Position numbers and translations under genes: made by a program. DNA of 64,000 bases from Mesostigma viride. Taxonomy: Eukaryota > Streptophyta > Mesostigmatophyceae > Mesostigmatales > Mesostigmataceae. Numbering within the stretch: position 1 is the stretch's first letter; every line of letters starts with the position of its first letter. Below the pieces are notes generated by a model that saw nothing but the letters and a program-made list of their open reading frames with translations, searched no databases and was not told where the DNA came from. Below are positions 16,217 to 63,860 of the stretch, in pieces. Location of the stretch: contig RPFO01000034.1 of NCBI GenBank assembly GCA_009746045.1, positions 4,371,949 through 4,435,948 of the forward strand. The letters are read 5' to 3'.

Positions 16217-16285
16217 AGTACCCATTGTGTGTGTTTGTATGTAGACTTGTGTGAGCTGCTACAGCTCAAGAAAAGAAAGGATTGG

Positions 16286-16985
16286 AGTTAACGCCAAGCG
16301 CATTGGCGTGTTCCTGATTCGGCATATCTCTACGATTCCAGCGGCACCGGAACGAGTTCATTCCGACAAGTATCAAGAAAGTTATGGTGTTCCGACTTCC
16401 CGGTCGCGCGCGAGCGCGAGCCGGCTATTCTTCTAAGTCGTGCGTGAATATGTGCCGACGGCATATGGGGTCGACAGTAATTCCTGGGCTGACAGGAATT
16501 AGGTGCTGAACCTACGACGGTATTGGATTAATACGTCGTACGCAGGAAATAGGAACCTTAACCTGTGGTCTGTTGGTACCGCAGGCTTAGTCCTGGACTA
16601 TTGGGTGCAGACGCAATAATCACTGTGGACTGTACTCTGTGGTCACTGTGCCTGTATGGCAGACCTACTGTATAGGATCTGGACGCTGTACAGGTTGTTA
16701 ATACTGTACCGGGGGTGTTAATACTGAGCAGGCCTACGAGGCTGCTCAGGCCTAGCAAAGCACAGTGCACAAGTATATAAAGAATAGGCCAGTGCCAACT
16801 GATTAGATCTCTTGCGAGCCCGTCTCACGTGTGTTGCCTTGACTTGGCAAACTCGTGTCTAAGCACTCACGTGCACGAGTGCTGTAAGCCTATATATTTT
16901 AACCAAGCTCCATTCCAACCATTCTCATGATGAATCTATCCGCGCGCATTGGAATCTATCTATCCCTACACATTGCGCTTTAACT
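16286..16985 (+). repeat. Element B 3' LTR
   Basis: 700 bp, uninterrupted, starting AGTTAAC after the purine tract ending GGATTGG, and ending TTTAACT before GACAC. Confidence 0.93.
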
Positions 16986-23203: not shown

Positions 23204-23266
23204 CATCCACCATGCTGGTGAGGTGGCGACAGGTCCCCTGATTTTCCACGGTTGGAACGAGTATAG

Positions 23267-28124: not shown

Positions 28125-28553
28125 AGTTGAACGCCCTTCACCGCTGGCTAGCACGCCGGCGATGGAGACGGGATTTTTGTTGTTTGGGGAACCGATTGTG
28201 GGAGGCTGAGCCCGCAGCCGCCACTGATTGCTATTGAACCCTTGCTGCTGGCCAGGCCGCAAGGAGCTCAGCGGCGCGGCGCTAACCGATAAGGCATGCT
28301 CGAGCCTCTAACCCGAGACTACCGGTAGGCTACCGGATAGTGCATGCTCGAGCCTCTAACCCGAGACTACCGGCACTCAGCGGATCTGTGCTACCGAGGG
28401 CGACGGTTCTCTGACCGTCCCGGCGCGCACTGGCTTCCGTACCTTGCTTAGGCACCGACTAGCATCTAGACACCAATCTTTGATGCCCACCTGACTAGGC
28501 GCCCAGGCCGGCGACTACCGGCCAGCGGATAGATGCCACTCGGGAGCACAACT
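28125..28553 (-). repeat. Element E 3' LTR
   Basis: 429 bp. It contains two copies of GCATGCTCGAGCCTCTAACC within about 80 bp (28294-28372). Identical by eye to 33893-34321. Confidence 0.95.
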
Positions 28554-28891
28554 CCCATACTTTCTTTTTAAATAATTATCATAAATTATTTAAAGCGAGG
28601 GGCAATAGGGTAGCACTGACCCTACGTACGTTCAAGTAGAGAAACACGTAACGGCACACTGACCGTCCCCAAATCCTAAACCCCAAGGAGGGTGCCCTAC
28701 GCTGGGATCTGAGCACGCCAAAAACACCCGGGCTTTGCTCCCGGCCTCCTTTTCTACTTGGGTGCAACTGCACCACATGCATCATTATTAGGCACACTGG
28801 CCGCCTGTCAGGTCTAGGGAAATGTATTCACAGATGAAAGAAGCGCCCATTCCCATGCAAAAAGACGACAGGTCACACGGTAAAAAAAAAC

Positions 28892-30850
28892 TCATGTCAT
28901 CATGAGCTGCCGCAGCAGCTTGTACTGAGGCCCCGACAGCATCGCTGGCTTGGTCAAGGCATCGGCAATATTCTCGCTCTCGGGGATCCACCGCCGCTCA
29001 TCCAACACCGTGGCGGACTCGGCCAACACAAGGTAATCTAGTTTGGTGGTGGAGGCGAGCGGGTTATTCAGAAACTCAATTATTGACTTGCTATCTGTGC
29101 ACAGCCGCATGCGGAGCGACAGCGCCACGCGGGCCTTATCCGCAATCCATTGCAAAAGATGCTGCACATAACACGCATGGTCGACAGCGGAAATGAACGC
29201 GCGACACTCCGCGCGATTGCTGTCTACCACTACCCGCTGATGGATGCGGCTATACCAGTCGACAATAGTGGGCTGCCCAGTGGGGCTATCAAGAAAAAAG
29301 ATGGCCGCCTCCCGCGCGCGCAGCTGCGTGATGGTACGCGACTCCAGGTTCGCGTCAGAGTAAATGGTCATTGCCACCGGGCGGGTGATATCAACCCCCC
29401 ACACGCGCAGGCCCGGTGACGCCAAGACTTGCGTCCGAAGATGCTGCGCTCCCATGCCCGCAAGCACGGCGTCGGGCGCACGCGCGTAGATGGACAGGTC
29501 GGGTCGCACCGTGCCCGCGAGCCACCCCAGCTGGCCGCGCAAGTGCGGTCCCGCGGACGCATCCAGCCGCTCAGGCAGCGATTGCGCGAGCTTGTCGGCG
29601 TATTCCTGCTTGGCCGCCATGTCAATGCACCAGCCAACCGGTGTGCGGTGCAAAGTGTAGGTTAGGCCACAGAAAGGGACGGGGGTGTCGGGGTCCAGCC
29701 ACAACGTGCGGCTAGTGGGCAAAAGCTTGGCCACAGCGGTTATGAACTGCCGGACCCACGCCCGGGGTCCAATAAGCCGCCAGTCATCCCCATGCCATTG
29801 CATGAACGCGGGCTCGTGTGGGTTGGGTGTGTGGATGTGAAAGAGGTTGCTATCGATGCGGGAAAACACCGCCCCCATGCTAGCAAAGATGCGTTCAGCC
29901 GTCTTGCGAAAGATGATGGGGCTAGACTGCAGGCCCTCCACACCAAGGAGAAGCCGCAAGTACACACACCGCAGCTCCCCCTGCCACACCAAAGGGACCT
30001 TGACCACATACACCGTGCCACGCCACACTTCCTCGGCCACTGCCGGGTCGCTATGGAGAAAGGCCCGCTGAAAATCTGAGCAGGCCATGGCATAGTCCAA
30101 CCCCCGATCCAACAGCCCCAAGAACACCGATGTTAACACCCGGCTAGTGGTCTGCGACAGCCCGGGCGTAAACAATTCCTCCTCCGACAACTCAGACGAG
30201 CCCCTAAACTCCGTGACACAGGGCCGTACATGAAATGTGACAGGGTCAGTGGGGAGGACCTGCTTATACTTGAGCACAAACTTCAAGTTCAGCTTTACCG
30301 CCCCTTGCGGCACCTCCATCAACTCCCCATACACCCCATACATCGCCCACTCCAGCTGCGCGCGCAAGAAAGCCGCGCGCCACTTATGGAACTTGACAGG
30401 GTCACGGCAGTCCTCCTTAAACTGCGGATAACTAACAGGAGATTTAGTGGCGATGCTCCAGGGAAAAATGCCAAGACTGCTGGGGTGACACTTCTGCGGC
30501 TGCGTGACATCGGCTACCAGCGGCTCTGCCGTATATTCCGCCCCGCGAATGGCCCCTACTGCAGTGGCATAATCCTCAGGGTGATTAATAGCCTCGGGGG
30601 GACCCCGGCCCGTGAGGGCTGCAAGCGCTACGTGATATTGGTACAAGCCTATGCTCCCCACCCCCTCGAGGGTCACCAAGCCGGCTGACACAGAAAACCC
30701 GGGGAGGGAAACAAAAGGGTTACCTATGAGGGTGATCCCCTTGTAACCCTCTAGCACTTGCACAGGGACATCTACCCCTAGGATGGGCATGAGCACCTGC
30801 CCAGCCACCTTATAGGCCCGCTGCCCGTCAAACCCCGCAACTCCTTCCAA
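28892..30850 (-). pseudogene. Element E pol, second part: PR end, RT, RNase H
   Basis: 652 codons, numbered from 30850. PR end: GFDGQRAY then LIGNPFV (about 41-47). The conserved pre-RT block (SYPQFKEDC, WRAAFLRAQLEW) leads into RT: LNLKFVLKYKQ, HVRPCVTEFRG, D259 in CSDFQRAFLHSDP, LLLGVEGLQSSPIIF (like the LYGLKQSPR region of Copia), and the active site QWHGDDWRL (353-356). Connector LRGQLGWLAGTVRPDLS. RNase H: D499, E548, D586, D630 in ENIADALTK. RT copies RNA to DNA; RNase H removes the RNA. The frame differs by one base from the upstream ORF, with the switch near 30845 right after SWKE, so one indel separates them. Everything else appears intact. Confidence 0.88.
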
Positions 30851-32640
30851 CTACTGGGCAGCAAAGGGTAATAGGCCTCGGCCGCCGCCGGGCTCGTGAT
30901 AGACACGCCTGCCATGGTATCTATGGCCGCAATATGCCTAGAGGGAACATCATGAGCTTCAGTCACAACCGTGGGGCACTTATCTGGCATGACGCGGCTG
31001 ACTTGTGCCGCACCCCCCGCTGCCGCCGCCTTGAGCTTGTCCGCCTTGAGCAGCTGTCGGAGGACGTGGGCCAGCTGGGAGCCCACGCCCGCGCCTGACG
31101 ATGTGTCCGGCGCCGCCACGGTGGGCGCTGCTGGGGTCGCGGGGAGGGGCTGAGGTAGCGCCCCCGCGTCGACCCCGGGGACTTGCTCCGGCGCGGCGCC
31201 TGCAGGGGGGTGGGCAACAAGCGCATCATGCACAGCCACCCCAAGTGGGGTGGGTAGGACAGGTTCCAGCCGGGCCCGCTTGGCCGGCCGGCTATCCACA
31301 TCCCAACCGAGCTGGCGGCTGTGCTCCTTGGCCGCCTGGACCTGGGCATCGGACGCCTTGTACCGATACACCTTATCCCACGGGATGAGATAGTCCCTAT
31401 GCTCCCAGTGCACCTTCACCCGCCTATGCACCCAGTCCAAATCCACCACCATGCCTGGCCCTTGCATCTGCCCCCGCTTGCCAAAGGAATTCTCCTTGTG
31501 AAACAAGACCAACTCCCCCAGCTCCCACTCCTGCGACAAGTCAGGCTGGGTGCGGTCTAACTGCCGCCTAACCTCAGCGGTGGTAGCGAGGTGGGCCTCC
31601 CAATGGTCTGCCACGTCCGGAGGGTAAATGCCCGACTGCAGCCCCCGCGCGGTAATAAGACCTAGTCCCTGGGGCAGCTTGAAAAGCACCTGGCTGTTGT
31701 ACTTGTCCATGAGCAAGCGGCACCACAGCGCGCGTTGTGCATAAGGCTGCCCCGCGGGCTTGAATCCTAACCCGCTGGCCTGCTGCTTGGCTGCCATGCC
31801 CTTTACGCTGCTGATGTGCCTATCAATCAGCCCCAAGTTGCCATGGTCCTGCCGCCCAGCAATAACCACCATCTCACAGCCCTCCCGCCCCACAATGCAA
31901 TCAAATTGTTGGTCCAACATGACCTCAGAAATGGGAAAGAAGTGAGACATGGCAATGCGCAGCCCCCGCCACAAGGACTCCTCTACCATGCTTGGCAGGG
32001 GCTCGATGGCTAGGAACTTGGTATAGCGATCCATCAAGACCAAATAATAGTCCCCCTCCTCCAAATGCATGACATCCCCCACTAACCTCCCCCGGTACGG
32101 GGAAGGAGTCTTAGCATGCCAGCGCCTACGCTTCTTCCTGACACTTGCGCATGCGTGGCACTCCTCTAACTCCGCCTGAGCGACCTTCAACCCCGGCGCC
32201 CCCATAAGCCGAGTCGCCCAGTCTAGCGTTTGCCCCGCCACATGACCCACCGCAAGGTGAATCTGGTGAGCAAGCATCCGCAATCCTATGGCCGTGGGGG
32301 TGGTGCCATCCCCTTCTATGCTAGGCACCTGCCCCGCCAAGCTCTCTGCATGTGCATTCCTGTCGGCAATGTGCTCTAGTGAGGCCTTACTGAGGCGGCG
32401 ACCCAACTCCACGTCTACGTGAGGGGCTACCTCGGCATCTGCCGGCACTATCTCACCTGAAGGGGTGAGCTCCGGAAGGGCGTGTTCAGGCTCTATTGCG
32501 ACCACGCTGGGCACGCACTCCTGATCAGCTGCAGCACTTGCACTTCCATTCTGAACCACGGACGTGGGAACATTAGGACTACAAGGCACAGCATCCTCAC
32601 GCCTAGCCGACTCACCGCGACACACATCACCTCTATGACG
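30778..32640 (-). CDS. Element E pol, first part: integrase and protease start
   Basis: Open in the same frame as Gag from the codon after the UGA. Numbered from 32625: an acidic linker of 120 residues; INT zinc ligands H123, H128, C156, C159; catalytic D184 (GDVMHL), D238 (VMLDQQF), and D268 in GLIDRH where C and A have Glu. The spacing of 29 residues is the same. An INT C-terminal domain (LGELVLFHKENSFGKRG) runs to about 420, then a Pro/Ala linker and the protease start with D569 in AIDTMAGVSIT. The frame then runs into a stop at 30778 after the PR frameshift. INT inserts the cDNA; PR would cut the polyprotein. The last acidic residue being Asp could weaken INT. Confidence 0.87.
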   Translation of the reverse strand, partial: RHRGDVCRGESARREDAVPCSPNVPTSVVQNGSASAAADQECVPSVVAIEPEHALPELTPSGEIVPADAEVAPHVDVELGRRLSKASLEHIADRNAHAESLAGQVPSIEGDGTTPTAIGLRMLAHQIHLAVGHVAGQTLDWATRLMGAPGLKVAQAELEECHACASVRKKRRRWHAKTPSPYRGRLVGDVMHLEEGDYYLVLMDRYTKFLAIEPLPSMVEESLWRGLRIAMSHFFPISEVMLDQQFDCIVGREGCEMVVIAGRQDHGNLGLIDRHISSVKGMAAKQQASGLGFKPAGQPYAQRALWCRLLMDKYNSQVLFKLPQGLGLITARGLQSGIYPPDVADHWEAHLATTAEVRRQLDRTQPDLSQEWELGELVLFHKENSFGKRGQMQGPGMVVDLDWVHRRVKVHWEHRDYLIPWDKVYRYKASDAQVQAAKEHSRQLGWDVDSRPAKRARLEPVLPTPLGVAVHDALVAHPPAGAAPEQVPGVDAGALPQPLPATPAAPTVAAPDTSSGAGVGSQLAHVLRQLLKADKLKAAAAGGAAQVSRVMPDKCPTVVTEAHDVPSRHIAAIDTMAGVSITSPAAAEAYYPLLPSSWKELRGLTGSGPIRWLGRCSCPS

Positions 32641-32643
32641 TCA
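32641..32643 (-). promoter_or_regulatory. Candidate Gag-Pol readthrough stop (UGA-C) of element E
   Basis: The only stop between Gag and Pol, which share one frame; the next base is C. Element A has the same layout at 17238-17240. Inferred role: a small share of ribosomes reads through to give Gag-Pol. Confidence 0.55.
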
Positions 32644-33846
32644 CTTGGGCATGGCTGGCCGTGGGGCGCGGCATGTGTTGGGGTCGTGTCCAGGAAGCCG
32701 AACCGCCCAGCAGCGCCGGCACACTCGAGTCGCCTTGCCGAGGTCCAGCCGCAGCGTGCAGTTGGCCTCGGTGTGCCCCACGCCGGTGCACCGCTCGCAG
32801 ACGACCTTCTCCTTGGGGACGCCACCCTGCTGCTGTTGCTGCCTGCCAGCGCCGCCCTCCTGTCGAGGCTGCTTGCCCTGACCGCCTCCCGGCCCGCGTT
32901 TGCTGGACGCGTTCTGGTTGTGCCGACCACCGCGAGCTCGGCGTTTGCCACCCAACATTCGCACCACGTTGTCGGCCACCGTCGTGGACAGCTGGGTAAC
33001 AAGAGTGGTCAAGTCCGACAGAGAAGCTGCTGGCGGGGTCGAGGCAGGCACAGGGTTTACCTGAGCAACTGTCGGCAGCTTGTTGTTACGCCTGGGGCCG
33101 CCCCGGTCCTTGAACATCTCTCGGAGGTGCGCCATGGCTGCGTTGAACCGTTTCTGGTCGTCCGGGGTGCCCACTACCACGGAAGAAGCTAGCGCAATTT
33201 TCATGCCGAGACCGGCCTTGACATTGGCACGGCTCTCTGGCGTCAGCCCCAGCGCATCCAGAACTGCGCTGAGTAAATATTCGCTACTCATGTGCTTCAA
33301 GACACCCTTGCTCCGGACCTGGGCCGCGAATCTGGCCATGTCCGAGCTGAGGTAATTCGGGTCAAGCGACAGGTTGCGCACCAGCGCCTGCCCCTCCTTT
33401 TCCTCGTCAGGAAAGCTTGAGGTGTCGAGCACCTCTTGCAGGGCCTTCACTGTGTCGGGCCAGGTCCACGCCTCTTTGCTGGCGTTGATAATGACCCCTC
33501 GCACGTCCGCATTACCCGTAGCCTCGTTGCATACCTCTGACCGGCGCAGCTTGGTGAGGAAAACTGCGTCGGACAGTTCGTTGTAGTCCTGCCGGAGCTC
33601 GCCCAGGCTGTTAATAAACTCCTCCACGGCGGACGGCGTCAGAATTTCTGGCAGCTTACTTGGCAGCTCTTCTTTCTTGAAAACTTTCCGGGCAGTTGGT
33701 GCTGACTGCTGCCCCGGAGCTGTGCTGACCGAGCCACCAGCTGGCTCAGTCGCCACGGTGGCTGCGCCACTCCCATCCGCCGGAGTTGATGCTTGCGTTC
33801 CCTGGTCCTGGGTTGCAGCTGGCGTTCGCTCCGCGCCACGCGCCAT
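32641..33846 (-). CDS. Element E gag
   Basis: Start chosen at the ATG 33846 (MARGAERTP), the first after the 5' LTR; upstream codons lie within the leader and LTR. Pro/Ala/Thr-rich N-terminus, then capsid-like helices (VEEFINSLGELRQDYNELSD, VKALQEVLDTS, FAAQVRSKGVLKHMSSEYLL), then a Gly/Arg/Gln-rich segment. It ends with two Cys/His clusters: CERCTGVGHTEANC (CX2CX4HX4C) and CRRCWAVRLPGHDPNTC. It ends AAG TGA CGT. Gag forms the particle and binds RNA. The single UGA followed by C is a leaky type of stop context. Confidence 0.87.
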   Translation of the reverse strand: MARGAERTPAATQDQGTQASTPADGSGAATVATEPAGGSVSTAPGQQSAPTARKVFKKEELPSKLPEILTPSAVEEFINSLGELRQDYNELSDAVFLTKLRRSEVCNEATGNADVRGVIINASKEAWTWPDTVKALQEVLDTSSFPDEEKEGQALVRNLSLDPNYLSSDMARFAAQVRSKGVLKHMSSEYLLSAVLDALGLTPESRANVKAGLGMKIALASSVVVGTPDDQKRFNAAMAHLREMFKDRGGPRRNNKLPTVAQVNPVPASTPPAASLSDLTTLVTQLSTTVADNVVRMLGGKRRARGGRHNQNASSKRGPGGGQGKQPRQEGGAGRQQQQQGGVPKEKVVCERCTGVGHTEANCTLRLDLGKATRVCRRCWAVRLPGHDPNTCRAPRPAMPK

Positions 33847-33892
33847 GAGCCCAGAAAAATGGTCAACGGTAATGTTGACTGTTGTGAATACA

Positions 33893-34321
33893 AGTTGAAC
33901 GCCCTTCACCGCTGGCTAGCACGCCGGCGATGGAGACGGGATTTTTGTTGTTTGGGGAACCGATTGTGGGAGGCTGAGCCCGCAGCCGCCACTGATTGCT
34001 ATTGAACCCTTGCTGCTGGCCAGGCCGCAAGGAGCTCAGCGGCGCGGCGCTAACCGATAAGGCATGCTCGAGCCTCTAACCCGAGACTACCGGTAGGCTA
34101 CCGGATAGTGCATGCTCGAGCCTCTAACCCGAGACTACCGGCACTCAGCGGATCTGTGCTACCGAGGGCGACGGTTCTCTGACCGTCCCGGCGCGCACTG
34201 GCTTCCGTACCTTGCTTAGGCACCGACTAGCATCTAGACACCAATCTTTGATGCCCACCTGACTAGGCGCCCAGGCCGGCGACTACCGGCCAGCGGATAG
34301 ATGCCACTCGGGAGCACAACT
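33893..34321 (-). repeat. Element E 5' LTR
   Basis: 429 bp, ending (minus strand) in CAACT just before the leader, flanked at 34322-34326 by the duplicate CTTTC. Confidence 0.95.
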
Positions 34322-35880: not shown

Positions 35881-36322
35881 TGTTGCGTCCAAGCCTATTT
35901 AATTAGGTTCCTTTAGTGGACAGTTCGGCGCAACAATGTTAAATAGGCGAAGTCTTAGTGTTCGACTATTTAGGACTATTTGTACAGCCGGTTCATACGG
36001 CGTTGTACTTGCTATTCAGTGGTTTTGTAGTACTTTCGGTACTTTGGTTTATCTGTAGGTGCGCAGCATGTCAATGTGCGTGGACCTAGTATAAGTCGTT
36101 TTGGGTCGTACGGTGAATGCGTGTGAACCGTAGCGCCCTAGAGATCTCGGTTGACCATGCGTCCAAGCAGTGCTGCTTGGCACTGCTTGGCAACGCCGTG
36201 AGCCGCCAAGGTTAATAGTGTGTGGGAACGTTCACCATTGTCACCCCCGGAATGAATGAAATGAATTGAGTTAATCTCTTTCTCTTTCCGGCTGGGTCAC
36301 GCCCGCGGGTTTAGGAAATGCA
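35881..36322 (+). repeat. LTR of TRIM family I (copy I1)
   Basis: 442 bp, TGTTGCGTCC...GGAAATGCA, the same length and sequence as the inverted copy at 48739-49180. It is followed by TGGTCCTGAATTCC, which starts TGG like a primer-binding site but differs from the other copy. No matching second LTR in this orientation and no duplication of flanks (CCATT and TGGTC), so it is a solo or orphan LTR. Confidence 0.75.
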
Positions 36323-38418
36323 TGGTCCTGAATTCCTGTCGTAAATGCTACATGTACCTCGGGAGGCATTTCGCCCAGCTTCCCACGAGGTTGCAACACC
36401 TCGGGCTTGAACCGGCCAGGGTCAACTGCGCCAGGTTAATTATGTTAGATTAGTTATCGTCCATACTAGTCATGGTGTGGATTGCGTAGATTAATATAGC
36501 GACCACTGTTCATAATGGTCTATTATGAATCAGGTGTAGATCTTTCGCAGCCGGCAGCCAGCCGGGATGTAAAACTGGACTCGGAGGAATCCACCTGAGT
36601 CGCAGAGGTAAATAAGCGCTGTTTATAAGTTTCTAAAACAATTGTAATGTCACATCGCAAACTTGCCACCTTGCGATTGTGCGTATGTCGTGACCTACAC
36701 TCTAGAGGTCACGACCCAGGTTCCTGTCAGGAGCGGCTTTTTTTTTTTCACGAATTTAATTTTAGTCGACTTTTTAGTAGGGCGGGGTTGCTGGCGAGTG
36801 TTCGAGGGAATGTCCTCATCATCGGCGACCTCTTTTACTTCGGCAGCGTCCATGGGCACGACACCCGGCAGTCAGCTGGGGGAGTCGAAGACACAGGTAT
36901 GCCCGGAGTAGGATTGTTCATTATGATAGAACGCTCCTTCGGCCAATGCTGTCGAAATTTTAGTTTTTCCTAGACTTGAATTTCTATCAGTATATGCAGC
37001 CCTACCCAGTAGTGTTTCTTTTAGGGTTGCAGCCCTTCCAGGCTGTAGCCCCCTTTTCTTTTTGTCATGCTGCAGCCCTTCCAGGCTGTAGCCCATTTGT
37101 GGTGCTGCAGCCCTTACAGGCTGTAGCCCCCTTTGTGTGTGTGTGTGTGTGTGCTGCAGCCCTTACATGTTGTAGCCCATTGTGGTGCTGCAGCCCTTAC
37201 AGGCTGTAGCCCCCTTTTGTGTGTGTGTGTGTGCTGCAGCCCTTCCAGGCTGTAGCCCATTTTTGCGTTGCAGCCCTTCCCGGCTGTAGCCCATTTTTGC
37301 GTTGCAGCCCTTCCCGGCTGTAGCCCATTTAGCGTTGCAGTCCTTCCAGGCTGTAGCCCAAGTGTTTCTTTTAGTGGCAGCCCTTATAGGCTGTAGCCCC
37401 TAGCAGCAATAGTGTACACTGTGGCTTGCTCCTTAATCTTCGGAGCACGCTGAACAGGTCATTCGTGGGTACGGGTGGGGTAGGCAGGTCTTGCCACTCT
37501 TGTTCAGGCAAAAGAGTTAATTCTTATGCACACGGCACTCCTGGGTCACTAGGAGCCACTTGTACCACTCTATGACCTTCACCACCACCTTTGCCTTCTG
37601 CCCCAACCCTCCTCTCACCTGGGTCATCAGTGTAGAGGGTACAGGGAGGGCAACAATTGTTGGATGCACTACGTAGCTGTGACAACAGGTAGTCATATCT
37701 GTTGCATGCGCAAATGGTGACGCGCAGTAGTAGCTACTTTGGTTGGCTGCTGCACTGTTACAGGTGGTCACACAATTGTTCTTTTCCTTCATTGGGTTGT
37801 TTTATTTTCTTTAGGTGCTGGTGGTCATGCCAGTATCTTGGAGACAGGCAGGTAGTAGCCAGTCTGGCTAGCTGCTGCGCTGTTACGGGTGGTCACACCT
37901 GTCCTTCTTCTTTCTTTTGTTGTTTGGTTATTTCCATATGCTGCTATTCATGCTAGTATGTTGACACTGTGTCCCTGTTGTTGTAGCCGGTAGCTGCCTG
38001 TACCATACCTCCTTTGCAGGGGCCAGGATGGCTGCCTGTGCTCACCTTATAGGTGCTATAGTGACAATTGCTATCTTTAGTAGCATCGTCCCTTGTAGTC
38101 TTTAGTGACTGCAATATTCTAGCAATATTTGTATCAGCTGTGACAGCAGCTAGTAATAGCTGTGTTGTCTAGGTTGGTCTTATTTGCTACTAGACATCGC
38201 AATTAGGGATACCCTCATGGCTGTTGCTGTCTCTTTGTTGGGATCAATTAGTTAAAGTGACAGTTGTTGCAACAGTTAGTCATAGCTGGTGCCATCATGA
38301 GTATTTTGTCTCTTTTGCTTCTTTTGGTTCCTGTGTATATGGCCCTCACGGCCGTCCATGTGAAGTGCATTAACGCTTTACCTCTTTTGTTTCCTTAGTG
38401 TCCCAATGTCCAGGAAAA
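36323..38418. other. Non-coding stretch
   Basis: No gene seen. Contains the tandem repeat at 37019-37400 and pyrimidine-rich sequence with scattered GGTCACAC and TAGTA motifs up to 38400. Confidence 0.5.
37019..37400 (+). repeat. Degenerate tandem repeat around GCAGCCCTTCCAGGCTGTAG
   Basis: About eleven units of 24 to 45 bp, each with GCAGCCCTT.CAGGCTGTAGCCC, a near-palindromic core (GGGCTGCA/TGCAGCCC arms). Spacers include TTTTTGCGT and GT runs at 37131-37153 and 37219-37233. Confidence 0.85.
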
Positions 38419-41210: not shown

Positions 41211-41956
41211 TGTCAAAATAACCAGGTATTGGAGGAACCTGATCTTTCTTGAAGCCTAGTACTTGAGGAAATGTTTATCACAATAGGAATTAATGTTCAT
41301 ATCCCATTCGTTGATTAAACATTAATAATATGGGGCGGCCACCATGTCTAGGGCCAGCCCTTTAGGTCACCTGGCTTGTAAACAACAAGGAGCAGCAATT
41401 TTCCTTAAGTGCTATGTCCACCCAAAGGGCAAAACCACAACAACGCATTGTAGCCGTCAGATTAGTGACGGCGCATTCAACATTGTCGGATGCACAAAAG
41501 TCATGCACATGCGCCAGAGGCGCGGCGCCGGAGCCAAAAGGTACTCTACCACTTATATTAGGTTTCTTTCTCTAAGGTCGGCGCAGGCTCAACTTATTTT
41601 CGTCTACATCTGTCACAAGGGAAGTGACGCGGCGCCACAACTGGTCCGTCTGGCAAAAATTGCCAAAGTCCATGCAGCCCGTCATACCAGACAACTCAGA
41701 ATATATGGTAAGACCTACGGACGGTACAAAAGTCCACAGTATCTTCCGTACTGAGATTCGACACTGAAAATAAAGCAAGGCACTGACGTAGCTCACACAG
41801 AATTGTGCCGGCAAGGTAAATCACGGCATATCCTACGTAATAATTCCGTCAATGTCCCGACGGCAGAATAAACGATAATACAAACACGAGCAAGTGGCCC
41901 AAGCCTGCACTAATAAAAATGCGAGCCTGTGGCACAAAACGGTAAAACTTCTGACA
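41211..41956 (-). repeat. Element G 3' LTR
   Basis: 746 bp, TGTCA...TGACA. The 136-codon ORF inside it (41344-41754, plus) is also present in the other LTR and shows no family features. Confidence 0.92.
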
Positions 41957-42142
41957 CACCCCCTTGGGCCATGGGCGAGAACTACCTGGCTTGTCACCAA
42001 AAACACTTGTTACTCTAGTATAGGTGAGCAGTTGGACGCGTCCGTCCTCACCACCCCCTGACAAAAGCACTGCGTCTGGGTTTCACATAATCAGGTGTTG
42101 AACCCGGCCATAGGGGTATATCATGTCATCACTGTCAGCGGC

Positions 42143-43055
42143 TCACAGAACTGTCTCAAGGGTCCCGGATGGGCCTGCGTCAGTGGAAAAACAGAAACCG
42201 GGTGGCAGTTCGCTGGCCTCCTGTGTCATGTTGGCCTGAGCTGGCTTCTCCTTGGGTCGCAGCTCGGGGTGCTTCCGCCAGCAGGTGGCAGGTGTGTGAC
42301 CGGGCTTCCTGCAGAAAGAACAGCGCTTGGGCGTGCTGCCTGCTCCAGTCGCATAGGCCTGCCCCGGTTGCTGGGCACCAGAGGTGCCTTCCTGCGGCTT
42401 GGCAGCACCCCCTTGCCCCTTGGAACCAGTACGGCGATCAACCAGGAAGTCGTCGATCTCCAAAAACAGGAGTTTCACCTCCCCCAAGGTCATCCCATCG
42501 CGCCGGCGGGCGGCCAGTGCCTGTCGATACTGTGTAGGCAGGCCGGCCAGCATGTAATCCCGCCACGCTTCATCGGTGAGGGGGATGCCGAGGTCATGAA
42601 GGCGGCGTCGGAGGACCTCACCCCTTGTCCAGTAGCTTATCCCCGACTCGGTCGCTGGGTTCATCTCAATCCTTGCAATCTCGCGTTTTTTTCTCCGCTT
42701 TGTAACTGTCAGTCATCATTGGCTGTTCGATTGTGTCACGCAGCCGTGCAAACACTGTCGATGCTCGCTGATCCGGGCATGAGTCAGCCAAGGAAACAGC
42801 CCAGTCTTCCAGGCACAAGAGAAGGGGTGCAAGCAGCACCTCGTCTAAGTTCCGGTTTTCTGGGTTGTCTTCCGCTGTCCCCAGCAGGATATCAGCGATG
42901 CCCTGGGAACGGCACAGCGTTGTAAACTGCAGCTTGAATGTGATCCACTTGTCGATATCTTTGCCGTTGATCTTCGTGACGTTTTTCACTGCTTGAGAAA
43001 GAAAACGTGTGTTGGCTAGGCGTTCCGCAGCGCGGTCAGCAGCCCGGCTAGTCAT
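42143..43055 (-). pseudogene. Element G gag (Copia/UBN2 type), one frameshift
   Basis: Starts at 43055 (MTSRAADRAAERL). Copia-type capsid: GKDIDKWITFKLQF, DILLGTAEDNPEN, WAVSLADSCPD, then after a one-base shift at the A-run near 42690, SYWTRGEVLRRRLHDLGIPL, DYMLAGLPTQYRQAL and LLFLEIDDFLVD. The nucleocapsid knuckle is CSFCRKPGHTPATC (CX2CX4HX4C). It ends at 42143 (GTLETVL). Role: particle formation and RNA packaging. The shift in a homopolymer may be a mutation or an assembly error. Confidence 0.85.
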
Positions 43056-43152
43056 TCTGAACAGGGGTATGGTAATGCTGGGCTCAGGTCTGGTTCAAAA
43101 ACAGGGGTATAGTCCGCTTAAACAGTACCAACTTAAAAGAAATAGTCAGCAC

Positions 43153-43413
43153 CTAGTCGTTGCCGGACCCTCCTGTGATGTTGTCAACCACAGCCCTTTC
43201 AATGTAGTAGTAAAAATCCCACAGGCCAAAATGCCAAGTGTTGTCCTCGTTTTTTACAGCCTGGAAAAGTTGATGCAACCAAGAGAAAGCTTGTAAAGGG
43301 TCTACAGCAAATGAGAAACTTCGACCCTCATACTCAAAGGTAACCTTAATAGGCTTTACAGGGTTGGAGGCTGGCTCTGATGAAGCTGGTGCAGGATTTT
43401 CAGTTCCGGACAT
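43153..43413 (-). CDS. Element G small ORF before gag
   Basis: 86 residues from the ATG at 43413 (MSGTENPAPASS): Pro/Ser-rich start, then KVTFEYEGRSFSFAVDP, LHQLFQAVKNEDNTWHFG and a Tyr-rich WDFYYYIERAVVD. No family recognised. It lies between the primer site and Gag; it may be the N-terminus of Gag in another frame. Moderate coding look, low certainty. Confidence 0.4.
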   Translation of the reverse strand: MSGTENPAPASSEPASNPVKPIKVTFEYEGRSFSFAVDPLQAFSWLHQLFQAVKNEDNTWHFGLWDFYYYIERAVVDNITGGSGND

Positions 43414-43585
43414 AGACTTGACACAGTCCAAAACTTGATATCTGGGACCCCAAACCTTGCTCTTAGGATGGCAAAAGTTGCCCAAAGGTGTGATGATCAC
43501 CCCTAGGTCCTTTTTGCATCAAAAAACCGCCTTCCAAGAACCCCCCAAGGTCAAAAACGGAATTCAACTCTGTAACTCGATACCA

Positions 43586-44328
43586 CGTCAAAATAACCAG
43601 GTATTGGAGGAACCTGATCTTTCTTGAAGCCTAGTACTTGAGGAAATGTTTATCACAATAGGAATTAATGTTCATATCCCATTCGTTGATTAAACATTAA
43701 TAATATGGGGCGGCCACCATGTCTAGGGCCAGCCCTTTAGGTCACCTGGCTTGTAAACAACAAGGAGCAGCAATTTTCCTTAAGTGCTATGTCCACCCAA
43801 AGGGCAAAACCACAACAACGCATTGTAGCCGTCAGATTAGTGAAAATCGCAACATTGTCGGATGCACAAAAGTCATGCACATGCGCCAGAGGCGCGGCGC
43901 CGGAGCCAAAAGGTACTCTACCACTTATATTAGGTTTCTTTCTCTAAGGTCGGCGCAGGCTCAACTTATTTTCGTCTACATCTGTCACAAGGGAAGTGAC
44001 GCGGCGCCACAACTGGTCCGTCTGGCAAAAATTGCCAAAGTCCATGCAGCCCGTCATACCAGACAACTCAGAATATATGGTAAGACCTACGGACGGTACA
44101 AAAGTCCACAGTATCTTCCGTACTGAGATTCGACACTGAAAATAAAGCAAGGCACTGACGTAGCTCACACAGAATTGTGCCGGCAAGGTAAATCACGGCA
44201 TATCCTACGTAATAATTCCGTCAATGTCCCGACGGCAGAATAAACGATAATACAAACACGAGCAAGTGGCCCAAGCCTGCACTAATAAAAATGCGAGCCT
44301 GTGGCACAAAACGGTAAAACTTCTGACA
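43586..44328 (-). repeat. Element G 5' LTR
   Basis: 743 bp, nearly identical to 41211-41956; followed on the minus strand by the Met-type primer site at about 43585-43573. Confidence 0.92.
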
Positions 44329-44333
44329 CCTTC

Positions 44334-45624: not shown

Positions 45625-45629
45625 GAAGC

Positions 45630-45707
45630 AGTTATATACAACGATTCCTGACGGAATCGACACTAAGCGCTTAGTATCGATTCCGTCAGGAATCGTTGTA
45701 TATAACT
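45630..45707. repeat. Palindrome P1 of element J
   Basis: 78 bp with 39-bp arms and one mismatch; centre AAGCGCTT. Confidence 0.95.
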
Positions 45708-46213
45708 AAAACTTTTGCTTGCGCCGGCAAGGCTAAGGCCGATACTAGTCGGGTCATCGAATTGGCTATTCGATTATCGAAGTTGCCTATTCGACCATCG
45801 AACTTTCCTATTCGATTATCGAATTTTCGTTATTCGATTGTCGAAATTTCCTATTCGACGGGGGGTCAGAGGCCAGCGGCCTATCATACTCGGTGCCCAG
45901 CGAGCCACCGAACTAGGCCTAGTCGATTATAGCGAGACATCGCGTGGAACTTAGCCGATTTCGGGGACTTAGCCGATTTTCGGAGCGACGTCGAACAACA
46001 CAGATGATTAGCCGGTTGAGCACATCATATCAGTCGAATAGCTAGCGCTGGTACTCGGCCTAGTAAGCGGAGAGCACTTGCCTATTTCGATTAACATATT
46101 AGGCCGAACGATTAGCGTCCGCAACGTTATTCGCATTACTAGGCGAAAAATCCACCCCCGGAACGATCCTAGCGGGATTCGAACCCGGGATGCCGGCGTG
46201 TCGCAACAGTCTT

Positions 46214-46291
46214 AGTTATATACAACGATTCCTGACGGAATCGACACTAAGCGCTTAGTGTCGATTCCGTCAGGAATCGTTGTATATAACT
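46214..46291. repeat. Palindrome P2 of element J (perfect)
   Basis: 78 bp, perfect; it is also the axis of the whole 1.25-kb palindrome. Confidence 0.95.
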
Positions 46292-46345
46292 AAGACTGCT
46301 GCGACACGCCGGCATCCCGGGTTCGAATCCCGCTAGGATCGTTCC
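46292..46345 (+). other. tRNA-like 3' half inside element J (copy on the plus strand)
   Basis: Directly after P2: AAGACTGCTGCGACACGCC, then GGTTCGAATCC (46320-46330), the exact B-box/T-arm consensus of tRNA genes, with four of five T-stem pairs. No full cloverleaf was made out. The mirror copy is at about 46160-46213 with GGATTCGAACC at 46175-46185. It could come from a tRNA gene and could serve as part of a Pol III promoter. Confidence 0.55.
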
Positions 46346-46798
46346 GGGGGTGGATTTTTCGCCTAGTAATGCGAATAACGTTGCGGACGCTAATCGTTCG
46401 GCCTAATATGTTAATCGAAATAGGCAAGTGCTCTCCGCTTACTAGGCCGAGTACCAGCGCTAGCTATTCGACTGATATGATGTGCTCAACCGGCTAATCA
46501 TCTGTGTTGTTCGACGTCGCTCCGAAAATCGGCTAAGTCCCCGAAATCGGCTAATTTCCACGCGATGTCTCGCTATAATCGACTAGGCCTAGTTCGGTGG
46601 CTCGCTGGGCACCGAGTATGATAGGCCGCTGGCCTCTGACCCCCCGTCGAATAGGAAATTTCGACAATCGAATAAGGAAAAATTCGATAATCGAATAGGA
46701 AAGTTCGATGGTCGAATAGGCAACTTCGATAATCGAATAGCCAATTCGATGACCCGACTAGTATCGGCCTTAGCCTTGCCGGCGCAAGCAAAAGTTTT

Positions 46799-46876
46799 AG
46801 TTATATACAACGATTCCTGACGGAATCGACACTAAGCGCTTAGTATCGATTCCGTCAGGAATCGTTGTATATAACT
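46799..46876. repeat. Palindrome P3 of element J
   Basis: Identical to P1 base for base, including the mismatch, in direct orientation. Confidence 0.95.
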
Positions 46877-46881
46877 GAAGC

Positions 46882-56792: not shown

Positions 56793-58056
56793 CACCTTGA
56801 GCACTACGGAGATTAACCAATTTATTGACGCCCTGAAGCCTTACCCCAATGTTGACTGCGGTCAAATATATGAGACCCCCAAGCTCGCTAATCAGGCGCT
56901 CGACAAAGCCAACAAGCAAGAGCTCAAGAATGGGCCCCTAAATTTTCACGACCTCAACTGGGTGTTGGTGTTTTGCGATAAAGGTCCGAAGCAAAGGGTC
57001 CTTTTGCGATCTAGCTTACCAACCAACAGAACCGCTGACTATTTGAGCGGCGAGGGCGAAAGGGCAAACTGCAAGCCTCGTTGTAGAGGAAACGAGAGCA
57101 ATGCACAAAAGACATCAAAAGCTTGCGCCCCGCCTTCGGACGCCCCACTGGATGCCGCCCCGGCTGCCGTGCCCTCTGCCCCGGCTGCGGTGCCCTCCGC
57201 CCCGGCTGCCGTGCCCTCTGCCCCGGCTGCGGTGCCCTCCGCCCCGGCTGCCGTGCCCTGCGCCCCGGCTGCCGTGCCCTCCGCCCCGGCTGCCGTGCCC
57301 TGCGCCCCGGCTGCCGTGCCATGCGCCCCGGCTGCCGTGCCCTCCGCCCCGGCTGCCGTGCCCTGCGCCCCGGCTGCGGCGCCCTCCGCCCCGGCTGCCG
57401 TGCCCTGCGCCCTGGCTGCCGTGCCCTGCGCCCCGGCTGCCGTGCCCTCCGCCCCGGCTGCCGTGCCCTGCGCCCCGGCTGCGGTGCCCTCCGCCCCGGC
57501 TGCGGCGCCCTCCGCCCCGGCTGCCGTGCCCTGCGCCCCGGCTGCGGTGCCCTCCGCCCCGGCTGCGGCGCCCTCCGCCCCGGCTGCCGTGCCCTCCGCC
57601 CCGGCTGCGGTGCCCTGCGCCCCGGCTGCTGTGCCCTCCGCCCCGGCTGCGGTGCCCTCCGCCCCGGCTGCCGTGCCCTCCGCCCCGGCTGCGGTGCCCT
57701 CCGCCCCGGCTGCCGTGCCCTGCGCCCCGGCTGCCGTGCCCTGCGCCCCGGCTGCCGTGCCCTGCGCCCCGGCTGCCGTGCCCTCCGCCCCGGCTGCCGT
57801 GCCCTCCGCCCCGGCTGCCGTGCCATGCGCCCCGGCTGCGGTGCCCTCCGCCCCGCGGGGTGCATCATCAACATTAGCTGCCGGACAAGAAGTGCAGGAG
57901 GATGATCCGGACAGCGATTCTGGGGATGAGGAGGAAGATGGGGGTGGAAAGGACCATGAGCGTCACCCAAGTGCCAACAAGGCATTTGCGCGGTACCTGT
58001 GCGAGGTATGGCAGCTGCAGGGTCAACCCAAAGAAACTGCCGCGTGGGCACCCTAA
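56793..58056 (+). pseudogene. MULE gene exon with Ala-Pro-Val repeat
   Basis: After the acceptor ATCGAGCAG (56792) the frame reads STLSTTEINQFIDALKPYP and a folded-looking 110-residue domain (YETPKLANQALDKANKQEL, LNWVLVFCDKG). Then come about 34 copies of a seven-residue unit, APAAVPS or APAAVPC. The end is acidic (DDPDSDSGDEEEDGGG) with NKAFARYLCEVWQLQ. It then runs into a stop at 58054-58056 while the next part of the protein continues in the neighbouring frame from about 58015, so a frame break is present. It is the region before the transposase domain; the function of the repeat is unknown. Confidence 0.55.
57154..57855 (+). repeat. 21-bp coding minisatellite
   Basis: About 34 units of GCCCCGGCTGCCGTGCCCTC plus one base. 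All six frames are open, which gives long but false ORFs on both strands. Units differ mainly at TCC/TGC (Ser/Cys) and GCC/GCG. Confidence 0.95.
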
Positions 58057-60327
58057 GGCGCGGGCGTCTAAATTGAGGGGTGAGATGTGCGTTGGATGTC
58101 GGGTTTCATGGCGTATCGTGGAGTTACGTGAGAACCTCGGCACATCATATATCACGTACTCCGAGTTCAGGCATGAGCATGGGGCAACTGGGCTGGCCAG
58201 GGACATCTACGAAGGTGGACAACGACTAAGCGAACGTTGCCGGGAGTTTCTATGCGGTAAGATGAGTGACCTGAAGGATGGGCAGCGGGCTAATTGTAAT
58301 GCTATCATCCGAGAATGGCAGAGAAGCTTAGAGGACTTGCTGGGATCCGAGGAGGCTATCAAGCAAAGGGACTACGCGTTGACTGCAGCGGATGTGAGAA
58401 ACATGGAAGACAAGTTGCTTTCAACGGCGTGGAAGTTCCATGCAGAAGAAGCAGAAAGCGTGGAATTATGGGCAGCGCGCTTGGGGGACAACGTCCGCTA
58501 CTACCAACCCCAGGAGATGACCCCGGACGGTACAGTCCAACTTTCCCCCTTTGTGCTAGTGTACCAGAATGCATGGCAGCGGGAAATGTATAAACTGCAT
58601 GGGCAAAAGAAGGCATTTTGGATAGCACATTTGGGGTATCCACCATGGGTTTCTCACTGGTGACGCTCATGGTCGTGGATGCTTTTGGTAATGGTGTGCC
58701 AGTGGCTTGGTGCCTTGCCAGCGCGGAGACCAGTGCCGTGTATGAGGCATTTCTAGAAGCTGTGGTGGATGGCTGTGAAACGAAGCCCCCGTTGACAATC
58801 ATCATCGATTGTTCAAACGCTGAAATGAACGCATTGAAGCGGGTGTTCCCAGCTACCAAGATCTTTTTGTGTTCATGGCACGTCCAGCGCGCTTGGTGCA
58901 CGAACCTATTAACAAAGGTGAAAGGTGCCAAGGTCCGTATGGAACTGATGGAAGAGCTTAATGCCATCTTGTATTACATGAGCTCGCGCCTTGCCGGGGA
59001 TGCGGAGGCGCAAGTACGTGCGGTGCAATGCCGGCTCACCCAGTTTTATACCAAGTGGGACCCCATTACCCCCGCATTTGTCGACTACATGCGCAGTCAA
59101 TGGGAGGACAAGCTGCACATGTGGGCGAAAGCGTTTAGGGTGGCGGATTATGCCCAACATGATACGAACAATATTCTTGAACGGTATCATCGAACCCTCA
59201 AGTATACTTGGCTGCATAACCGTGGGCGCCAACGTCTTGACTGGCTAATTTACATGTTTGGGTTGATTGTTGGGTGGCTGGAAAGGGACCAACAGCTCAA
59301 AACCCGTGGTGTCATCATAAATCACCGTCGGCGGAAAGAAGAGATGGCGGAGCTTGACAAGGCGTGTAATCTCCAAGCGGAAATACAGCAAGGTAAAACC
59401 AGGAGCTGCTGGGCGGAGATGGTCACGGATGGTTCTTGCACATCCCGTCGCGTTGTGGTGGATTTCGTGACTTGCGTGAGGTCATTTAATATTGACCTCA
59501 ACTCTAACACGGCCACTTGCGACTGCACCGACTCTAAAACAGGAAACATTTGTCATCATTTCTTGGTCGACCTCATGCTCTCCGGTGTGGCTACCCGTGA
59601 GGACATTGAGCTTGTGATCAAACGCCGGGCAGCATTCGGTGTTCCGCCAAACAAGCACTCTTGTGTGCACTTCCTTGAGGAATTGCTCTGGGTGAGAAAC
59701 AAGGCAACTCCATCTGAGAAAGGGGAGGCTTCGGATTTTCCTGACACGGCTGACGTCGATGAAACTCCCGATGACGCCCAGCCACCCGACTTTGGTCAAC
59801 CTGCCAATCACGACAAAGGTCAAGCATCATCTTCCGTGAAGGAGAAGAATCGGCAGATGCTTAGCCGAATCGAGGCTGCATGGGATGGGGCGGCAACCGA
59901 GGATGGTTTGCGGCGCGCCCAAGAGCTCACAAGTCTAGCTTTGGCGGACGTGGCGCGACAAATTGAAGACTTTGTGCGCTTGGATAGGCAAAGGGCAGCA
60001 GTGGGCAATGTTCCGCCTACACCTACCTTGCGCCCTGTTGATAAACCTGCGGTCAGGAGAGGCACTCGAGACATTCGGCACGACCCCGCTGTATTCGGGC
60101 AACAATGTGGTGTCAAACGTGCATTTGTCCGTCGGAATGGTGGGGCAAAGAAACAGAAGCTGAGCGTCATGGGCCGATTGCAGAAAGATGCTGCCAGTGA
60201 GGCAAGCAATGGTGCGGGGTCCCGAGCCCAAAGCAATCCACTATGTTCTTTTCCACTTGCTGAAGCGTCGGATTCATCATTGGCCATGCCGGAAGGCGGC
60301 CAAGCGGCTGTCGACCACGGCTTGTGA
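58015..60327 (+). pseudogene. Mutator-like (MULE, FAR1/FHY3-type) transposase, frameshifted
   Basis: First part in frame 2 (about 58015-58600): CVGCRVSWRIVELRENLG, then SFxx-free helical text ending LVYQNAWQREMYKLHGQ. A one-base shift near 58600 leads into the frame of 58618-60327. The catalytic triad is visible: D2 in LDSTFGVS, D64 in IIIDCSNAEMN followed by CSWH, and E188 in NNILERYHRTLKY. The SWIM zinc finger is C301, C303, C312, H314. A long C-terminal tail carries DETPDDAQPPDF and a basic KRAFVRRNGGAKKQK. It ends at TGA 60325-60327. MULE transposases cut and paste Mutator-type elements; related proteins serve as plant transcription factors. The two frame breaks suggest a recent pseudogene or assembly errors. 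No 9-bp duplication or long inverted repeats were found around it. Confidence 0.82.
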
Positions 60328-60448
60328 TGGAGCTCAAGCTGCCGAGGCATACATGTGGAGGTAATACACTGTGCAAGAGCCAATGTCCTTCGGCGAAGTC
60401 ATTCCTCACAGGCATGTTGTGTGTGGGCGGGGGCAGGGGCGGGGGCGC

Positions 60449-60784
<336 letters not shown>

Positions 60785-60786
60785 GC

Positions 60787-61597
60787 ACGACTGTCCGACT
60801 GCCCGACTGCCCGACTGCCGACTGCCCGACTGCCCGACTGCCCGACTGCCCGACTGCCCGACTGCCCGACTGCCCGACTGCCCGACTGCCCGACTGCCCG
60901 ACTGCCCGACTGCCCGACTGCCCGACTGTCCGACTGCCCGACTGCCCGACTGCCCGACTGCCCGACTGCCCGACTGCCCGACTGTCCGACTGCCCGACTG
61001 CCCGACTGCCCGACTCCCGACTGCCCGACTGCCGACTGCCCGACTGCCGACTGCCCGACTCCGACTGCCCGACTGCCCGACTGCCCGACTGCCCGACTGC
61101 CCGACTGCCCGACTGCCCGACTGCCCGACTGCCCGACTGCCCGACTGCCCGACTGCCCGACTGCCCGACTGCCCGACTGCCCGACTGCCCGACTGCCCGA
61201 CTGCCCGACTGCCCGACTGCCCGACTGCCCGACTGCCGACTGCCCGACTGCCCGACTGCCCGACTGCCCGACTGCCCGACTGCCCGACTGCCCGACTGCC
61301 CGACTGCCCGACTGCCCGACTGCCCGACTGCCCGACTGCCCGACTGCCCGACTGCCCGACTGCCCGACTGCCCGACTGCCCGACTGCCCGACTGCCCGAC
61401 TGCCCGACTGCCCGACTGCCCGACTGCCCGACTGCCCGACTGCCCGACTGCCCGACTGCCGACTGCCCGACTGCCCGACTGCCCGACTCCCGACTGCCCG
61501 ACTGCCCGACTGCCCGACTGCCCGACTGCCCGACTGCCCGACTGTCCGACTGCCGACTGCCCGACTGCCCGACTGCCCAACTGCCCGACTGCCCGAC
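60787..61597 (+). repeat. (GACTGCCC)n 8-bp satellite
   Basis: About 100 units of GACTGCCC, with interruptions that lose one or more bases (for example near 60815, 61013-61057, 61234, 61457, 61549). The run sits directly against the ACGC block. Confidence 0.97.
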
Positions 61598-63860
61598 TGC
61601 CAACCTAACGAACTCCCTCTCACTGCGTCTCTCTCTGCTGGGCTTCCTTTTCCCTTTTTCTCCCCCGTTATTGTATTGTGGTTGTGCATGTGCATGTAAT
61701 GCCCATATGTACGCAATTAGAAAAAGAGATTCCTGAAGTTTTTCATCCATAGCTTGTCACGAATCATTGTTTGTGTGTGGTTGAGTCCAGGGTTCTAAAC
61801 TCAGTGCTTGTCTATTTGCTCTTAATGCAGGAGGTGGTGACCGAGCTTTCGGCATGAAGATTCCAAGACTACCCTCATATTGGAGCATTATCAGCTGGCA
61901 GCTGCAAATGCCCAAGGGCTGCAATGGATGGAGCTCTCGAGTTGAAGGGCCCATTATCATAAAGGCCTGCCTTCACGTTGGCCATGTTACACAGTCATGA
62001 ATGAATAAATTAATAAACACGTAGACAGCGTCAGCATATTTCCTGATGGAATGGGGAAGGGGGATGGGGACAGTCATAAGCTAGCCGCAGTGGTGCAGTA
62101 TCATGTGTCTTATATGCATACTGCTATAAAACTGGGCACCTTGAAAATTTTCCTCGTGGGCTAGCTAGGATCCATGCGACAACTGGATGATTGTGAGGTT
62201 CTTCAACATCTACCTGGTCAGTAATTTTGCAGGTGGCCGGCCAACACAAGGTATGCGTTGCTAACATTCAACACATGCATGCGTCTGCTGATTTAATAAT
62301 GCATACCGATGTTGGTTGACCTTGATAGCTAATTTATTGGCGGATCCACACGTCACGTTGCCGTAAGTAATAATCATAAGATGTCATGATTGACTGCGTC
62401 AACGAGCATACATCCCCATTGGAATGGTTGAGCAATGAGCCCCGACCAAATTATCAGTCAAACCTTAATTTGGGTTGAAAGAGCGTCAAACACATTCTTG
62501 ATTGTCCAAATTCTTACTATATGATCTGACGTGCATCCATCCTCACAATGCCAATGGCCGCTATCTCATGGATGACAGGAACATGTTTCCTGCTCTAAAA
62601 TTAAATTAAATAAATTATAGCATGCCTCGGTGGGGTGGGCATGTAGCACCTAGAGTGCTTTCCAGTCCCTGTAAGTTGCACAGTGGGAAAGGGGCAAAGA
62701 CACCTGCGTCCTCACTCATGCCCGAAGGCAGGCCACAGCTGCGTTCAACGCTCGTTGGACTATGGCAAACTGTGGGTGTGCTAAAGCTGAAATATGCGCG
62801 AGTATGCTGGTATGTTGGCTGCTCTAAGGACCGAGCCACTGATGGCCAGTGGTGGAATCATCTTGCACGTAGTCTAGCTAGCCAACCCCAACACTGTCCC
62901 AAGGTACCTAGCCACAAAGACCCCACTAGCTGCAGGCATGGGTGCCAACAAAGTGTGATTCGGCTAGGATCGGCTCCCAAACATGCGAGCCATACATGTG
63001 TGCTTTACATTTACGCACACACTGACAACCTCAGCCCAGGTCGATCCACGTTGGTTGACATTAGACAACGTATTGACGCTGTAATTACCAAATAAGCAAA
63101 AAAGCTCACCATGGGCTCAACAATTTTCAGGCACGGCATGTGCACGGCAGTTGCCTGCACCTATTTTACAATGCACGTCAGTGGTAAAAAGCTTGGTACT
63201 GTATTTCATTGATATTTGTAATGCCATCCTTGCCTGCATGTCCCAAGGGCTACTCAAAAAAAGAAGAAGCAGTATCAACGACAAGCTTTCTACTTTAGGA
63301 CACAAGGATCCCTATACAAACACTCATACAAGAACAAACCCAGCATTCAACAAACCCATCACCAAATGATACAGTGGTCAGTCACACTCTGCAACACTAA
63401 ACTTGAAGGATACAGCAACACTAGCAACCTACGCAAAATAAGCAAGATACTGTAACAGATACATGTGGTCCAGTTCCCAGATACGGGCTGACAGTTCCGC
63501 GAGGGCCGACAAGGTGTGCTACCAAGCTTTACGCAGAAAATCAGAGAAAGAAAGGCGCGCACGATGACCGCGTCCAGACGCATTTCCCGGTATATCTCTT
63601 CAAGGTCTACTTGGAAACTTGGTAGCGAGGTATGGAGAGGCAATGCATAAAAAGCTCGGAAGCTAACGAGAGAAGGCAGGGTGGGGGGAAGAAGACAGGA
63701 CGGGACGTTGGAGGAACGCATGAGACGGAGGGAGGGAGCGAGCAAGGGAGGGAGGGAGGGAGAAAAAAACGAGAGAGGGAAAGATTGCCAGACAAAAGAT
63801 CGATTCGAAGAGGAAACTAAGTGTGCCGACATTACTGCGAGTAGAGAAAGCAGAATTTTT
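61598..63860. other. Unassigned sequence
   Basis: No gene with strong support. A T-rich stretch followed by GCAG at about 61826 looks like a splice acceptor, and the following 180 bp read an open frame of mixed composition. An ATG ORF at 62622-63095 (157 codons, MPRWGGHVAPRVL) has no recognisable family and no upstream signals. 63660-63780 is purine-rich with GGGAGGGAGCGAG repeats. Confidence 0.4.

Follow-up and report, generated by a model that had tools for sequence, protein, structure and literature searches.

Fold-back DNA transposons carry long inverted repeats together with inner tandem repeats, as does the element described here, named J, but unlike in J their ends are not remade as direct repeats. 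For small LTR elements, an inverted pair of Zma-SMART elements within the target-site duplication (TSD) CTTCA was reported in maize, in one figure legend of a study of tandemly arrayed TRIMs (TA-TRIMs; PMC4717578). Grass LTR complexes in which a single target duplication surrounds two similar outer LTRs and another LTR between them have been described, and the text of that report presents these features as the marks of template switching (PMC1950507). Among the titles and opening lines of abstracts searched in the openly accessible literature, no TRIM with a palindromic LTR was found; fourteen papers with related wording concerned HIV integrase, LTR-finding programs, AAV, and other subjects.

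J is located in a 64,000-nucleotide stretch of Mesostigma viride DNA (the window). It is 1247 bp long, and consists of three 78-bp palindromes (P1, P2, and P3) alternating with two inverted insides, with GAAGC at both flanks (45625..45629 and 46877..46881). P1 (45630..45707), an outer palindromic terminal repeat with 39-bp arms of half-types t9/t0, is followed by the 506-bp inside arm I+ (45708..46213, + strand), the perfect central palindrome P2 (46214..46291, t9/t9), the 507-bp inside arm I− (46292..46798, − strand), and the second outer terminal repeat P3 (46799..46876, t9/t0), which is identical to P1 in direct orientation. I− is an inverted copy of I+ about P2, with four differences (three substitutions and one indel). 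Repeats of 21 bp (TATTCGATTATCGAA...) occupy a subterminal position in each arm (45756..45858 on the + strand in I+; 46647..46752 on the − strand in I−). The ends of J read AGTTA...TAACT, and one mismatched pair is common to P1 (C45661/A45676) and P3 (C46830/A46845). The preliminary description had reported this duplication, these ends, the direct P1 and P3 with their common mismatch and the inverted insides, all of which were confirmed to the base. The longest stop-to-stop frame is of 85 aa and J is without coding sequence; its length of 1247 bp is that of a dimer, monomers of the family being of about 660 bp.

Outside J, the longest loop-free palindrome of the window (one mismatch at most) had a 16-bp arm, and the same measure applied to five single-base shuffles of the window gave arms of 9 to 11; since only short arms are found there, the palindromes of J are not due to chance. 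Folded as single-stranded DNA, P gave a z of −16. TCGA was found 30 times on the two strands of one arm of the inside, the rest of the window giving an expectation of 2.0. A MIR814 match on P2 (57.5 bits for a gathering score of 90) was taken as hairpin scoring plus chance, and a 19-mer match in a bacterial contig was estimated to be at about chance level in 257 billion bases. A search of viral contigs gave 0 matches.

The family was then searched for in the genome (440 Mb, 2243 contigs). First-look candidates numbered 204 with J as the query, 188 with the inside, and 397 with P; because the places fetched come from the best-scoring 40 of these 188 to 397 candidates per search, the sample leans to J-like copies. 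The 62 regions fetched, with J added and L029, L061, and two L022 copies removed, gave 64 clusters. Both outer P were complete in 44 of them, and 37 of these 44 were bounded by an exact duplication of 5 bp or more, when 0.89 would be expected with shuffled right flanks, in line with the many duplicated copies that had been predicted. As 37 of 44 places carry exact target duplications, an assembly artefact is very unlikely for J. Four clusters (L011, L018, L053, and L060) had no exact duplication but regained a 5-bp one when an end P fragment was counted as part of the element, and three of the 44 (L025, L042, and L051) had none even with P fragments allowed. The duplications were biased: of the 37, 15 began with G and 20 had C at position 5.

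The 37 duplicated insertions comprised 16 intact inverted dimers, 10 monomers, which are the P-inside-P copies also predicted, 1 trimer, 1 direct dimer, and 9 dimers that had been damaged or rearranged. P-I-P, P-I-P-I'-P, P-I-P-I-P, and a four-P form were seen, with one duplication around each. Inverted dimers were the commonest form among the fetched copies and no solo P was found among the fetched places. Copies devoid of the duplication and of direct P had been named in advance as contrary evidence; they do not form the rule, although L025, L042, L051, L022, and a second family, Q, are exceptions. Direct identical ends (with the exceptions of L022, L031, and Q), a 4–6-bp duplication, and no coding capacity are shared with LTR elements and TRIMs, and J is probably a non-autonomous, non-coding LTR-type retroelement (TRIM-like), the LTR of which is the 78-bp palindrome P and the inverted dimers of which arise by strand switch or fold-back.

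The junctions of the dimers have a marked polarity, with 36 tail-to-tail inverted junctions (T-arm side inward) versus 1 head-to-head, and 5 direct junctions, in a count that takes in truncated clusters and leaves out L065–L067. L041 and L060 are direct dimers. In three broken dimers (L045, L046, and L048), P2 is interrupted and the sequence continues directly in the inside, with match overlaps of 4, 2, and 3 bases, respectively. In 19 dimers, divergence was 2.18% between + arms, 2.30% between − arms, and 2.25% between + and − arms, and these near-equal values led us to reject separate + and − arm lineages. In 10 of the 25 loci with two arms, these arms were sisters. In L022, the arms were 0.0% apart and the outer P were inverted, as expected from a fresh fold-back. 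Polarity, sister arms, and P2-to-inside jumps are compatible with reverse transcriptase strand switching at the palindrome, through a putative RNA step.

The second family was found nested in a J-family copy (L067:2062-3075). Q, of which one copy was seen, is 1014 bp long, has its own AGCAC duplication, and contains a 212-bp palindromic repeat three times, with 189-bp insides in inverted order. Its arms are identical (0/189 differences); of the three repeats, Q1 and Q2 are the same, and Q3 corresponds exactly to Q1 in reverse complement. A BLAST search of the other loci and the window gave no match beyond its own place (L061 and L067). Q and the J family are nevertheless alike in their AGTTA...TAACT ends, the AAAAC start of the inside, the T-arm motif GGGATTCGAACCC, and the GTCTT closing the inside before the repeat.

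The T-arm/B-box motif GGTTCGAATCC is present in both arms of J (46175..46185 on the − strand in I+; 46320..46330 on the + strand in I−). Four matches to GGTTCGANTCC were detected in the window, for 0.08 expected, two in the J arms and two in the A and E elements presented below. The 11-base motif was exact in 82 of 88 aligned insides; GGGATTCGAACCC was at most 3.4% variant at any position and the P-proximal 50 bp of the inside (45708..45757, + strand) at most 2.3% per position, for a mean variability of 1.4%, and this conservation gives no more than a hint of function. ARAGORN predicted 0 tRNAs in J, and Rfam gave no tRNA between 45580 and 46930 among matches to E ≤ 5; a tRNA gene or SINE identity was thus rejected, only a B-box-like motif being found. 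No hammerhead or other ribozyme, as in retrozymes, was among the Rfam matches of J up to E = 5, and the RNA fold of the T-arm stretch was not unusual (z −0.44). Of the possible tRNA-derived promoter put forward in the preliminary description, a T-arm/B-box motif was the sole sign found, though at the same place in the second family as well. P is followed by AAAACTTTTGCTTGCG, with no TGG start and hence no canonical tRNA primer-binding site, and P3 is preceded by GCAAGCAAAAGTTTT only, with no clear purine tract. J ends in AG...CT and not in TG...CA.

AG...CT ends are also found in three AGTT...AACT LTR elements of the window, A (4598-26467, TSD CTAGC), E, nested in A (7315-16985, TSD GACAC), and x (28125-34321, TSD CTTTC), which, like J, have a 5-bp duplication. 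Unlike J, they contain non-palindromic LTRs of about 430–700 bp and gag/pol-like ORFs, and no end sequence shared with J was seen beyond AGTTA. In our reading of the sequence, these ORFs appear Copia-like (HGDD, ADALTK, CCHC), with an unusual gag-INT-AP-RT-RH order in which the protease would follow the integrase. In Pfam, NCBIfam, and PDB, the best support for pol was a weak Pfam rve match in x (E = 0.045), matches for A, E, and x being otherwise weak and unrelated, and a structural model built for the RT-RNase H ORF of x reached a pLDDT of 36. J could be placed in the A/E family, as first suggested, by the AGTT...AACT ends and the 5-bp duplication only; it lacks coding sequence, and neither a tRNA primer site that could be recognised nor a clear purine tract was seen in it. 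A sense T-arm-like GGTTCGATTCC is present at 15671 and 21030 in the A/E nest.

Other elements were noted on reading the window and the fetched loci. By our reading, the segment 47376-49180 is an LTR element with TG...CA ends and a primer-type TGG site, the copy of which snaps back at a natural LTR hairpin with a 12-nt spacer, forming a 1.36-kb inverted repeat; another copy of its LTR lies at 35881-36325. TG...CA LTR pairs with 5-bp duplications were also read at 23266-25334 (TATAG) and 41212-44329 (CCTTC), and their presence beside AGTT...AACT elements indicates two LTR-end types in one genome. An ORF with a MULE transposase domain (58594-60324, Pfam E = 1.9e-14), a 733-aa ORF with a weak integrase-core match (1507-3708, rve E = 2.1e-5), and long tandem arrays of 21-bp, 4-bp (CGCA), and 8-bp (CGACTGCC) units (57155-57855 and 60446-61601) were present in the window. 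Among the fetched loci, an inverted dimer and its flank are repeated three times in L022:499-5012, with a unit of about 1.63 kb, and a J-family copy contains an 830-bp insertion (L034:598-1427), the ends of which resemble CAGTGTTTCGA...TCGAATCACTG and which seems to have an 8–9-bp duplication.

The outer P were identical in direct orientation in 23 of the 37 insertions, for at most 7 in 10,000 re-pairing shuffles. Fourteen of these 23 pairs are perfect palindromes, in which direct and inverted are indistinguishable, and orientation can therefore be told in only nine, namely J, L006, L007, L012, L016, L021, L039, L052, and L056, where the outer P are direct and not inverted. When inexact pairs were counted, the direct orientation fitted better in 14 insertions, 5 of these pairs being inexact, and the inverted one in two (L022 and L031); L022 is the sole J-family insertion among the 37 with outer P exactly inverted and not direct. 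Seven of the 37 (L008, L011, L013, L040, L045, L064, and L066) had unlike outer P that fitted equally well both ways. These results bear on the earlier proposal that the end repeats were made or corrected as direct repeats, like LTRs: in J it is seen at one mismatched pair only, and the other copies agree, with exceptions.

The halves of P (39 nt) were then typed, L052, with its 77-nt P, being left out. A pool of 212 halves (three L022 copies counted) contained 32 types, four of which made up 125, and a second typing gave 35 types in 214 halves, with 13 types at two or more loci. Among 34 asymmetric outer P, both half-types were known at another locus in 23, one in 9, and neither in 2. A pair of such half-types was found at both ends in J (t9/t0), L006 and L007 (t0/t2), L016 (t0/t5), L021 (t11/t3), and L039 (t8/t0); one half was known elsewhere in L012, and none in L056. 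Halves within one P were more alike than random (20 of 49 perfect, for at most 14 in 5000 shuffles). Such a mixing of half-types would result if U3 and U5 of different templates were joined. The direct identity of the outer P and their two half-types could also be explained, with neither a primer site nor reverse transcription of a long hairpin, by an element replicating at the DNA level, in which a one-P circle produced by P1 × P3 recombination would insert by a staggered cut across P followed by fill-in on both sides. We consider this unlikely: on its own, it leaves the direct dimers, the end P fragments, and the P2-to-inside jumps unexplained, and a transposase duplicating a 78-bp end in such a way is not known to us from eukaryotes, which counts against it.

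The near-perfect inverted ends, the subterminal repeats, the 1.2-kb fold-back form, and the fixed-length target duplication are also those of a class II DNA transposon, fold-back or MITE-like, mobilised through its inverted ends, and the outer repeats are exactly inverted in L022 and Q. However, cut-and-paste does not make ends identical, when 23 of 37 insertions have such ends for at most 7 in shuffles, the direct orientation prevails over the inverted by 14 to 2, and L041 and L060 are direct dimers. Separately inherited inverted ends, which distinguish fold-back and TIR elements, were not found, though L022 and Q do have exactly inverted ends, and a transposon of this type appears rather improbable. 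Standard annotation would, we expect, class the J-family copies as fold-back DNA elements.

Between loci, P differed at 5.3 of 78 positions, roughly threefold the divergence of the insides (about 2.2% in 19 dimers); taken with the likeness within insertions, this suggests that P changes fast between insertions and is usually alike at both ends. J, L006, L007, L012, L016, L021, and others contain three P in one duplication, the outer two alike and the inner one different, and such an identity of the outer P with a differing central P is LTR logic. A TIR element in which the copies of P were evened out at each locus by gene conversion would agree with arms 1.5% apart within dimers versus 2.2% between loci (19 dimers), but conversion should then include the nearer central P, which equals P1 in only 4 of 22; we regard it as very improbable.

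L007 has arms of two different length subtypes, and each of them matches arms from other loci at every aligned base; the arms of L014 are likewise of two subtypes, one arm matching arms elsewhere in this way. Some dimers may thus join two templates or have recombined afterwards. A tandem or inverted array generated by recombination between neighbouring independent insertions would suit L007, but it predicts no matching duplication round the complex (an argument made in the text of PMC1950507), when 37 of 44 have one, and hardly deserves consideration.

If J is an LTR-type retroelement, as we favour, its RNA copy would be reverse transcribed by enzymes acting in trans, perhaps provided by AGTT...AACT-ended, pol-bearing elements of the genome; that elements of the A/E/x type move J is a guess based on the ends. 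Because P is its own reverse complement, the growing cDNA could fold back at P or continue there on the opposite strand. An inverted dimer would be produced in this first step and, having proper ends, would then spread as a unit, each cycle making the outer P identical and direct. J would be a product of this second step, when L022 and, by the model, Q look like products of the first. The inverted outer repeats of Q are a counterexample to the direct-repeat claim. The lack of a canonical primer-binding site and of a clear purine tract, the outer repeats that fit better inverted (L022, L031, and Q), and the pairs in which direct and inverted are indistinguishable count against the retroelement reading, and so do the poor suitability of a 1.2-kb inverted repeat for reverse transcription and the fact that we know of no autonomous element with P-like ends.

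For the J family, LTR-like behaviour has good support, with the exceptions given above, and the family is possibly a class of its own. More tentatively, it may represent a distinct class of retroelements in which a palindromic terminal repeat takes the place of a tRNA primer, a hairpin at the 3' end of the RNA or cDNA, on the T-arm side, self-primes, and tail-to-tail inverted dimers are the normal product and then multiply as units. The plan is common to the J family (P, 78 bp, many copies) and Q (212 bp, one copy seen), the sequences of which are unrelated. If the LTR-type reading is true, copying in the LTR manner operates on an element with a near-perfect hairpin for an LTR, and its monomers, inverted and direct dimers, trimer, and hybrid repeats constitute a natural multi-copy record of possible reverse transcriptase strand switching at a palindrome. 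Inverted repeats on the kilobase scale, which can give rise to double-stranded RNA and set off silencing, could then themselves be mobile units.

Among described systems, TA-TRIMs are like the J family in being small non-coding LTR elements with several repeats and insides in one 5-bp duplication, but in the J family inverted dimers are more common than any other form fetched, with a single polarity, whereas the main text of the TA-TRIM paper contains "palindrom" 0 times and its inverted case is one figure panel (PMC4717578). The grass complexes share with J the 5-bp duplication, the likeness of the outer LTRs, and the presence of a third LTR between them, and reverse transcriptase template switching was invoked for them; they are, however, formed by large LTR retrotransposons, and neither "inverted" nor "palindrom" appears anywhere in the text of that report (PMC1950507). 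According to its published description, biv-TRIM of bivalves, like J, has no clear primer-binding site, inner inverted repeats with tRNA-like stretches, and tandem forms, but its palindromes are inverted repeats of 9–10 bp in the inner domain and not terminal repeats (PMC6934838). Cassandra, as described in PMC7215508, is like J a TRIM with a Pol III-type sequence that is found in arrays; it has a 5S rRNA sequence in its LTR and forms tandem arrays, whereas the T-arm motif of J is in the inside, beside the central repeat.
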